Origin: Pedobacter nanyangensis
Lineage (GTDB): Bacteria; Bacteroidota; Bacteroidia; Sphingobacteriales; Sphingobacteriaceae
DNA length: 64,000 nt
Reading direction: 5' to 3'
Assembly (NCBI RefSeq): GCF_003313505.1
Contig: NZ_QMHO01000001.1
Location: forward strand, 496,001 to 560,000
Shown here: piece by piece, positions 58,784-61,615 of the stretch
How positions within the stretch are numbered: the stretch's first letter is position 1
Layout of the letters: each line of letters opens with the position of its first letter
The notes under the pieces: generated by a model
Told to the model about the DNA's origin: nothing
What the model saw: only the letters and a program-made list of their open reading frames with translations
The model's database searches: none
Program-made: the position numbers and the translations under genes

Positions 58784-58844
58784 GCTTTTTTACCCACAGG
58801 ATGAACACAGGCCGTAGTCATTTGGGACATGGCCGAGAAATCAT

Positions 58845-58991
58845 TCAGGTTGAATACAGACTAAAGTACAGCGACTTCATTTTACTTCGTAGCACTTTGG
58901 GTGTCACACCCGTTTGGTTGCCGTAGAAATAACCGAATAAGGCCTGGCGCAATGCAAATGGACCAGCCAGGTCTAGGCGCTGCGTACATGC
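58845..58991 (-). pseudogene. possible remnant of an AraC-family regulator
   Basis: Minus-strand translation gives LFGYFYGNQTGVTPKVLRSK before a stop at 58845, much like the last helix region of AraC regulators (...TGVTPKVYR). The rest of the gene is missing: the open frame is only about 49 codons. AraC regulators often neighbour siderophore receptor genes such as the one at 59210. The remaining spacer 58784-59126 shows nothing else. Confidence 0.35.
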
Positions 58992-59126
58992 TTAATTTAA
59001 TGTGCCTGGTAACTCCCTACTTGGCTACAGGCCGGCATCTTTTTAAGGTGAAATACGCCACGTAAAACCAGGGTAATGGCCCCCATGGTTTAGCCCCGCA
59101 ATAACTAAACAAGCATGATACCACCA

Positions 59127-59147
59127 TTTTTAGATTAAATGTAAAAA
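59127..59147. promoter_or_regulatory. Fur-like palindrome, upstream site
   Basis: TTTTTAGATT-A-AATGTAAAAA: arms match at 9 of 10 positions around a single central base, the 7-1-7 style of Fur boxes. It ends four bases before the -33 TTG. Confidence 0.65.
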
Positions 59148-59151
59148 TCCC

Positions 59152-59182
59152 TTGACAAAGAATGGATTCGATTCTATCTTTG
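59152..59182 (+). promoter_or_regulatory. promoter of the siderophore receptor gene
   Basis: TTG at 59152-59154, a 20-base spacer, TATCTTTG at 59175-59182. Transcription should begin within or next to the second palindrome. Confidence 0.8.
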
Positions 59183-59186
59183 CGCA

Positions 59187-59205
59187 ATTAAGATTTAATC
59201 TAAAT
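59187..59205. promoter_or_regulatory. Fur-like palindrome, downstream site
   Basis: ATTAAGATT-T-AATCTAAAT, arms matching at 8 of 9 positions around one central base. It overlaps the expected transcription start and ends just before the ATG at 59210. Confidence 0.65.
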
Positions 59206-59209
59206 AAAA

Positions 59210-61615
59210 ATGAGAATAAAATTTATATCTACCTTATTCGTTTGTGTGTTAGTTGGCCTGTTTTCAATGGCAGTATATGGGCAAAAGGGTAAATCAAACC
59301 TTTTGGGAACGGTTAAAACCAACGACGGAAGTGCCGCTAGCCATGTTACGGTAAGTTTAAAAGGGATTTCGACCCAAACCGACGAAAATGGACGTTTTGT
59401 GTTCAGGAGCCTAGCCGCTGGCACTTACCAGGTAACGGTTTCGGCTGTGGGCGTTAAATCTGTGCAGCTTGATGTACAGGTAAAGGAAGGCGATAATCAA
59501 ATGAATACCATTGTGATTTCCGAGTCGGCCTCGCAGTTGCAGGAAGTAGCCATTAGCACTTATAAATCATCTAACAATAAACCTGCAACGTTAGGCAAGG
59601 TAGCAATTGCACCACGAGATTTGCCTCAATCAGTACAGATTATTACCAGTGAGGTGATTCAAGACCAACAAGCAGATAGACTTGGCGATGTGATGAAGAA
59701 TGTGAACGGCGTAGCCCTGGGCGCTAACCGTGGCAGTGTAGGCGAGAACTTTTATGCCAGAGGCTACAGCCTGGGCGCCAATAATGTCTTTAAAAATGGT
59801 GCACGTACCAGCATTGGCGGCAGTCCCGAGGCCAGTACCTTAGAGTCTGTTGAGGTGTTAAAAGGCAGTGCCGCCTTATTGTATGGTGGGGTAACGGGAG
59901 GCGCCGTGGTTAACATGATTACCAAGAAACCAAAATTTGAGCAAGGAGGAGAAGTAGCTTTTCGTACGGGAAGTTATGGGCAGTACAAGCCAACGGTAGA
60001 TCTTTACGGTCCCATTGACGATAAATTTGCCTTCAGAATTATTGGAACAGGAGAAAAAGCGGAGAGCTTTAGAGATCAGGTAGAATCAAAGCGGTTTTAC
60101 ATCAATCCCTCTTTGTTATATAAGGCAAATGAAAATACGGAGATATTGTTCCAGGCCGATTACCTGAGCAGCAATTATACGCCAGATTTTGGTATAGGTA
60201 CCGTAAACAATAAAATTGTTGATTTGGGCAGAAATAAATTCATAAATACCCCCTGGGCCTACAACAAAACCAATACTACCACCATTCAGCTAAACGGAAA
60301 CCATAAGTTTAACGAGTTCTGGAAACTTAATGTAGTTGCCGCATACCAATCATACGATAGAGACTATTATGGGGCAGAAAGACCAGTAGGAACTGCTGCG
60401 GGTATAGCTCCCAGGGCGCTTACAAGATCTAAAATCCAAGAATATACCTATAACCAACAACTTAATTTAACCGGAACTTTTAAGGCTTTGGGTATCAAAA
60501 ACACCCTGTTGGTTGGGGTAGATGCCGACCAGTCGAGAACTACCAGCAATGGATTTAACTTCATAAACAAAGCGGGGCAAAGGGTTTCTACGTTTAGCTA
60601 TGAATCGGTAAACCTTTTTGATCCTACAACTTACTATGGTAGCGGTTTTATGCCTACAACAGTAGCCGTTTCAGAAACCTTAACTCCCGTGTACCGATAT
60701 GGAGCATTTATCCAAAACTTGTTCGAAATTACCAGCAAATTTAAAGCATTGGCGGGCATTCGCTATACCGACCAGAAAAGCGCCCGGATTGTGCCCGTTG
60801 CATTAAGCAACGTTCCCGTAGCCTTGCCTACCGCAACCAAGTTTGATGATGCGTTTTCGCCCAAATTAGGATTGGTTTACGAGCCATTTAAAACCACTTC
60901 AATTTATGTGAGCTACGCAAACAATTTTACCATCAACACCGGCCAGGATATTTACGGCGCAGCTTTAAAACCGTCTATTATAGATCAGTACGAAGGAGGG
61001 ATCAAAAACGATTTCTGGGGCGGAAGGCTTTCGGTAAACGCAACCTACTACGTTATTAAAAATGCCAACTTTGCCCAAATGGCCCTTTTTAAAGCCGATG
61101 GCTCAACCAATGCCGATGCAAATGTTAAGGAATTTTCAGGAAGCACGCAAAGTGATGGCTTTGAACTGGATGTTAAGGGAAGTTTGGCAAAGGGACTCAA
61201 TATTATGGCTGGTTATGCGTATAACTACATGCGCTATACCTCAACCTTGGCCGCCAGCGGCATTGTAGAAGGCGAGCGGGTAGTTGGTACCACCAAACAT
61301 ACGGGCAATGCCACCCTGTTTTACACCGTGCAAAACGGAGCAGTAAAAGGCTTAAAGCTTGGTGCGTCGGCATTTTATACCGGTGATAGGAATGGCGGCA
61401 GGAATACCAACAAAAGCGGAACTTCATCGGGCATTATCCCGCTAAAGGCATTTACCACGGTTGATTTATCGGCAGGATATTCCTGGAGGAAGATTTCCCT
61501 ATTGGCCAAGATATCCAACCTTACCAACGAACTAAACTATTTTGTTCACGAAAACTATAGCGTTAACCCCATACCGCCACGCCAGTTTTTAACCACACTG
61601 TCGTACAAATTGTAA
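59210..61615 (+). CDS. TonB-dependent siderophore receptor
   Basis: 801-residue outer-membrane receptor importing ferric siderophores by TonB energy. Signal about 1-24; carboxypeptidase-regulatory-like domain 28-108; TonB box region and plug 115-240 with ATLGKVAIAPRDLPQSVQII, RGSVGENFYARGY and LLYGGVTGGAVVNMITKKP; 22-strand barrel to the end, closing with PPRQFLTTLSYKL. The plug sequence is that of the FhuE/FpvA/ferrichrome type. Promoter with two Fur-like palindromes supports iron control. No siderophore synthesis gene nearby. Confidence 0.94.
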   Translation: MRIKFISTLFVCVLVGLFSMAVYGQKGKSNLLGTVKTNDGSAASHVTVSLKGISTQTDENGRFVFRSLAAGTYQVTVSAVGVKSVQLDVQVKEGDNQMNTIVISESASQLQEVAISTYKSSNNKPATLGKVAIAPRDLPQSVQIITSEVIQDQQADRLGDVMKNVNGVALGANRGSVGENFYARGYSLGANNVFKNGARTSIGGSPEASTLESVEVLKGSAALLYGGVTGGAVVNMITKKPKFEQGGEVAFRTGSYGQYKPTVDLYGPIDDKFAFRIIGTGEKAESFRDQVESKRFYINPSLLYKANENTEILFQADYLSSNYTPDFGIGTVNNKIVDLGRNKFINTPWAYNKTNTTTIQLNGNHKFNEFWKLNVVAAYQSYDRDYYGAERPVGTAAGIAPRALTRSKIQEYTYNQQLNLTGTFKALGIKNTLLVGVDADQSRTTSNGFNFINKAGQRVSTFSYESVNLFDPTTYYGSGFMPTTVAVSETLTPVYRYGAFIQNLFEITSKFKALAGIRYTDQKSARIVPVALSNVPVALPTATKFDDAFSPKLGLVYEPFKTTSIYVSYANNFTINTGQDIYGAALKPSIIDQYEGGIKNDFWGGRLSVNATYYVIKNANFAQMALFKADGSTNADANVKEFSGSTQSDGFELDVKGSLAKGLNIMAGYAYNYMRYTSTLAASGIVEGERVVGTTKHTGNATLFYTVQNGAVKGLKLGASAFYTGDRNGGRNTNKSGTSSGIIPLKAFTTVDLSAGYSWRKISLLAKISNLTNELNYFVHENYSVNPIPPRQFLTTLSYKL

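Follow-up and report, generated by a model that had tools for sequence, protein, structure and literature searches.

The receptor locus and its two palindromes

The stretch of DNA analyzed here (the window, 64 kb) lies on contig C1 of a Pedobacter-like genome of 4.74 Mb and contains a gene for a TonB-dependent siderophore receptor (Table 1) whose product scores 263.5 bits against TIGR01783, for which the cut-off is 223.5. The nearest named relatives of this gene are found in Nubsella zeaxanthinifaciens and Pedobacter species. Upstream of it are a TTG and the sequence TATCTTTG, which we take to be a promoter of the Bacteroidota −33/−7 type. This type of promoter is stated for the phylum in PMC5609570.

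Table 1. Receptor gene, promoter elements and palindromes in the window
Feature	Coordinates	Strand	Description
Upstream Fur-type box	59127..59147	.	TTTTTAGATTAAATGTAAAAA, arms 9/10; 17-mer core 59129-59145 TTTAGATTAAATGTAAA
TTG of −33 element	59152..59154	+	Assigned from sequence
−7 element	59175..59182	+	TATCTTTG (TAnnTTTG); assigned from sequence
Downstream Fur-type box	59187..59205	.	ATTAAGATTTAATCTAAAT, arms 8/9; 17-mer core 59188-59204 TTAAGATTTAATCTAAA
TonB-dependent siderophore receptor	59210..61615	+	801 aa; CarboxypepD_reg, Plug and barrel domains

Two palindromes flank this promoter. The downstream one starts 5 nt past the −7 element and ends 4 nt short of the ATG and, because of where the TTG and the −7 element lie, it would span the transcription start predicted from these elements as well as the short leader. 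Both sites are odd-centered inverted repeats with a spacer of 5 bases (N5) between TTTAGA/TCTAAA-type arms, with deviations in one arm of the upstream site (TGTAAA) and in the downstream site (TTAAGA). The initial annotation had placed the two palindromes on either side of the promoter and had recognized half-sites TTTAGATTAAAT and ATTTAATCTAAA as reverse complements of each other. Its coordinates and arm matches were reproduced, each half-site is unique in the window (positions 59129 and 59193), and the flanking arrangement was borne out, with the first palindrome ending 4 nt 5′ of the −33 TTG and the second lying over the presumptive start. The region between the GNAT gene and the receptor (58784-59126) is about 340 bp of intergenic DNA in the window versus a close relative (L046) in which the end of a GNAT-like gene nearly adjoins the box. 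A repeat origin of the intergenic positions 58790-59120 was rejected since this stretch has a single copy in our genome.

Symmetry of this kind is close to expectation across the whole window, where single-center palindromes with 8 of 9 arm matches numbered 13 against 8.4 expected and those with 9 of 10 numbered 2 against 3.6 expected, and the case is therefore not based on symmetry. Two palindromes inside 90 bp had a simulated P of 0.0024 at the local, AT-rich base composition. A search with the shared sequence, allowing up to 3 mismatches, found just these 2 sites in 64 kb (shuffle mean 0.40), and at least 2 sites were seen in 6 of 100 shuffles, or in 27 of 100 with the shorter 17-mer. These window-only statistics are modest, and the decisive evidence is conservation among relatives. 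Chance palindromes were rejected as an explanation because, although the symmetry alone is unremarkable, the pair is conserved.

Conservation of the pair and recurrence of the motif

Boxes in related promoters were scored against TTTAGAATnATTCTAAA with a threshold of at least 11 of 16. A pair in which TTTG immediately precedes the downstream box was found in all 30 same-genus receptor promoters (the best 30 receptor matches from 60 genomes searched, our own included), with spacings of 58 (12 promoters), 59 (16) and 60 bp (2). A pair was also present in 71 of the 80 loci from named relatives. In both sets the sequences are related, and the counts are not independent events. The 9 named loci lacking a pair had one box (L120, L125, L127, L131, L140, L153) or none (L122, L128, L130). 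Pedobacter-like pairs (n = 43) were spaced 56-60 bp apart, with 58-60 bp in 41, while the 28 Chryseobacterium-like pairs fell at 39-40 bp (22 pairs) or 50-51 bp (6 pairs). In 66 of the 71 pairs the downstream box begins 6-7 nt past the TTTG of the −7 element. Shuffling of upstream regions (1600 shuffled sequences) produced a pair sum of at least 22 in 1.8% and of at least 24 in 0.3%, and a sum of 24 was reached by all 71 pairs of the named relatives. The two shorter spacing classes, seen in L134-L164 (Chryseobacterium and a relative), are one helical turn apart.

Among the 22 promoters whose boxes are spaced 58 bp apart, conservation is highest in the columns of the boxes. In Pedobacter the outer half-sites are best kept, namely the left arm of the upstream box and the right arm of the downstream box, and these are the mutually reverse-complementary half-sites of the initial annotation. 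The upstream box is near-canonical in Nubsella and off-consensus in the sister site of P. chitinilyticus. In our own strain it is without the TTA/TAA flanks and may be weak or partly decayed.

A motif model (R1) was built from 40 of 70 distinct boxes, all from other species and with own-genome boxes excluded, and gave the consensus TTATTTAGAATnAnTCTAAATAA. Scanning our own genome with this model at E ≤10 returned 30 rows corresponding to 19 distinct places. The downstream box of the window was among these matches; the upstream box was absent from the 30 rows and is therefore the weaker partner in this strain. Other matches lie before feoA-feoB (C16:40.6k), at a second TIGR01783 receptor (C1:666.7k), at a DUF6607 gene that adjoins the cluster of that receptor and has two boxes with starts 58 bp apart, at a TonB receptor with two boxes 41 bp apart (C3:215k), before another TonB receptor (C9:61.6k), at a gene for a DUF6686-like small protein (score under the Pfam cut-off), and at genes for a ferredoxin (assigned by sequence) and a ferredoxin reductase-like flavoprotein. 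Genes near model sites that had no Pfam match were named by eye. Matches of doubtful relevance were found at an ankyrin protein, a Gfo/Idh-like gene, a cytochrome c and the nuoA-nuoB gap; a further one lies about 600 bp ahead of a ferritin-like gene, and three more are weak. The initial annotation had proposed that absence of the motif from other iron-uptake promoters would count against a Fur-type operator; in genome-wide searches with sequence patterns and with the model it recurs at such promoters, including those of feoAB and other TonB receptors.

The same distribution is seen beyond our strain, since in other Pedobacter genomes too the best matches are upstream of genes for TonB receptors and DUF6686-like proteins. 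Pairs spaced 57-60 bp occur before other receptor groups (L239, L240, L245, L249, L252, L253), and pairs spaced 41 bp occur at L244 and L254. The box before the small cysteine-containing DUF6686-like protein (C5:159970-159992; also L229, L234, L250) is a strong one of the Fur type that is found in several Pedobacter genomes, and we consider this protein a candidate new member of the iron regulon. The Fur-type box in the nuoA-nuoB gap (C11:141230-141250) has a better counterpart in a second Pedobacter genome, where it lies at the corresponding gene (L233).

Fur as the probable regulator, and other explanations of the pair

The genome encodes one strong Fur protein (C5:293796-294272, 104 bits) in the gene order rel-fur-purA, with rel and purA assigned by eye. 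Its closest solved structures are Fur proteins, and its scores fall under the NCBIfam equivalog cut-offs. In Flavobacterium psychrophilum fur likewise precedes purA, and the hfp receptor operon is repressed by iron (PMC9331221). No box was seen by eye in the upstream region of fur itself, and autoregulation of fur was rejected on this basis.

The recurrence of the motif at other iron-uptake promoters, its agreement with the published Bacteroidota Fur box and the presence of Fur in the genome together support the Fur-type operator suggested by the initial annotation. We consider it very probable that the two palindromes are operators of this Fur, which would block the promoter at both ends, with binding, repression and the response to iron all predicted. 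With ample iron, Fur dimers loaded with metal would occupy both boxes, one against the −33 element and the other over the transcription start, and would deny polymerase access to the receptor promoter at either end. Under iron limitation, Fur would depart and the siderophore receptor would be produced.

The initial annotation had added that a regulator bound at both sites could loop the DNA. The narrow spacing within each lineage, with about 58 bp found again at L239, L240, L245, L253 and the DUF6607 gene, is in favor of a loop joining two Fur dimers, as is the separation of the Chryseobacterium classes at 39-40 and 50-51 bp by one turn. We nevertheless judge this improbable. The boxes are 5.3-5.7 helical turns apart in the Pedobacter relatives versus 3.7-3.8 or 4.8-4.9 in Chryseobacterium, so that the phase is constant only within a lineage, and because the phases differ between lineages the looping idea is left unsupported. 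The positions of the boxes follow the promoter elements, which accounts for the spacing without a loop, and the roughly 42 bp between box cores is short for one. Plain blocking at both promoter ends is enough, and a loop is unnecessary.

We regard it as quite unlikely that the sites serve the DtxR-family regulator of the MntR type that is also encoded in the genome, even though its half-site is nearly identical. The palindrome TTTAGATTTGTCTAAA lies 22 nt before mntR in the mntR-mntH operon (C5:273720-273735; L165:1278-1293), where the DtxR-family gene adjoins mntH. In the genus, TTTAGA-N4-TCTAAA is found at 11-12 of 12 positions in 26 of 30 DtxR-family loci, nearly always 36-37 nt before the ATG; the N4 site is lacking in the other 4 (L207, L208, L217, L218), and L212 has a differing sequence at the N4-site score. 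This conserved palindrome, however, has a spacer of 4 and an even center, whereas the spacer is 5 and the center odd in the two window sites and in each of the 40 receptor boxes aligned, which puts the window sites outside the pattern of the MntR operator; the MntR/DtxR reading was rejected for this difference of one base. The N5 boxes are found at iron genes including feoAB, while the perfect N4 sites are at mntR-mntH, one TonB receptor and the interior of one ORF. The Fur box published in PMC5609570 is also N5.

The N4 palindrome was present at mntR in all of 16 mntR regions, which are not independent evidence because they were chosen from N4-positive genomes. Intergenic counts in these regions for spacers of 2 to 8 were 1, 2, 18, 1, 0, 0 and 1, with 2 of the 18 N4 sites not at mntR. 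With one mismatch allowed, the N4 pattern showed no overall enrichment in our own genome (42 forward versus 61 in the reversed control), and inspection of N4 matches in this genome was confined to the three perfect sites. One of these (C5:279006-279021; L220) is the same 16-mer TTTAGATTTGTCTAAA, inverted, 34 nt before a gene for a TonB receptor of 756 residues, which is a candidate for a manganese-controlled outer-membrane receptor. Since the outer arms are the same at both types of site, the iron boxes are distinguished by a 5-base spacer and the putative manganese boxes by a 4-base spacer. This suggests that a spacing code of one base pair may separate iron from manganese control.

Two more FUR-domain proteins are encoded in the genome (C20:21525 and C17:40867), and Fur-family paralogs have a common core motif, so that a PerR- or Zur-like paralog might bind the boxes instead of Fur. 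This is more improbable still, with scores for the two proteins that are weaker (31 and 29 bits versus 104 for Fur), an apparent metal-efflux gene (assigned by eye) adjoining one of them, a regulon that consists of iron uptake and a published box that belongs to Fur. A hairpin in the leader RNA, as might be imagined for a palindrome sitting at the start of the message, was rejected as extremely improbable because the leader, at −2 kcal/mol (z +1.48), folds no more stably than its shuffled versions, of which 192 in 200 did as well, the upstream copy is not in the message and the sequence itself is conserved.

The Fur helix and comparison with known operators

The DNA-reading helix of our Fur contains the motif ATVYNTL versus ATVYRTL in the aligned solved Fur. 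Each of the 30 Fur loci compared, which come from across the phylum, has Asn at this place (the best 30 of 103 genomes with a match, from 118 searched). Our reading of the motif is that this Asn probably occupies the position of canonical Arg57, in which our Fur would differ from that of E. coli and other canonical Fur proteins. The half-site of the consensus, TTAGAAT, differs at the guanine from the canonical Fur half-site, TGATAAT, which fits with Asn in place of Arg57. In the Fur-DNA structure described in PMC4506495, Tyr56 and Arg57 read bases, Arg57 pairs with a conserved guanine and the R57A change abolishes binding. PgFur of Porphyromonas gingivalis is described as also failing to bind the E. 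coli box (PMC6613475). As a tentative proposal, which we hold at somewhat less than even confidence, Pedobacter and its relatives may use a common half-site with a code of N5 for Fur and N4 for MntR, accompanied by the change of Arg57 to Asn in Fur, and two Fur dimers may clamp the iron promoters at fixed positions flanking the core promoter.

As a probable Fur box, the operator belongs to a type described before in Bacteroidota, and we count it as largely familiar for this reason. The consensus agrees with the box of Riemerella anatipestifer, ATTTAGAATTATTCTAAAT, which is reported in PMC5609570 together with gel shifts for a selection of promoters. Further accounts describe a metal-dependent gel shift and a fur mutant in which rhuB, a TonB receptor gene, is derepressed (PMC10986502), as well as derepression in a Fur-box mutant (PMC11967795). 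Contrary to these papers, PMC7976709 quotes for R. anatipestifer a Fur box of the E. coli type.

For Pedobacter-like soil bacteria, the literature searches made here listed no published Fur motif, and the present analysis provides this group with a predicted iron regulon and a well-supported consensus for the Fur operator. Neither the conserved bracketing pair nor the one-base contrast with MntR was found in print, which is weak evidence of novelty given that the literature coverage was partial. The paired layout would account for tight control of the siderophore receptor, and the contrast between N5 and N4 bears on how two metal regulators from separate protein families keep from interfering with each other at sites that are nearly identical.

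The MntR/DtxR-family operator of the genus is like the boxes described here in its outer half-sites and in its similar place near the start codon, but differs in having a spacer one base shorter, an even center and manganese transport genes downstream. The E. coli Fur box, quoted in PMC5609570 as GATAATGATAATCATTATC, is likewise an odd-centered inverted repeat on iron-gene promoters, but the downstream site agrees with it at 7 of 19 positions by eye and is not of the E. coli type. The pair instead has the features of the Riemerella type, with N5 arms, a place at an iron-uptake promoter, recurrence at iron genes and a Fur protein encoded in the same genome. As described, the R. anatipestifer box is also odd-centered with TTTAGA/TCTAAA outer arms and stands before TonB receptors and iron genes, and by eye the downstream site matches ATTTAGAATTATTCTAAAT at 16 of 19 positions and the upstream site at 13 of 19. 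The table of PMC5609570 gives a single box per gene in R. anatipestifer, in contrast to the conserved pair that brackets the promoter here.
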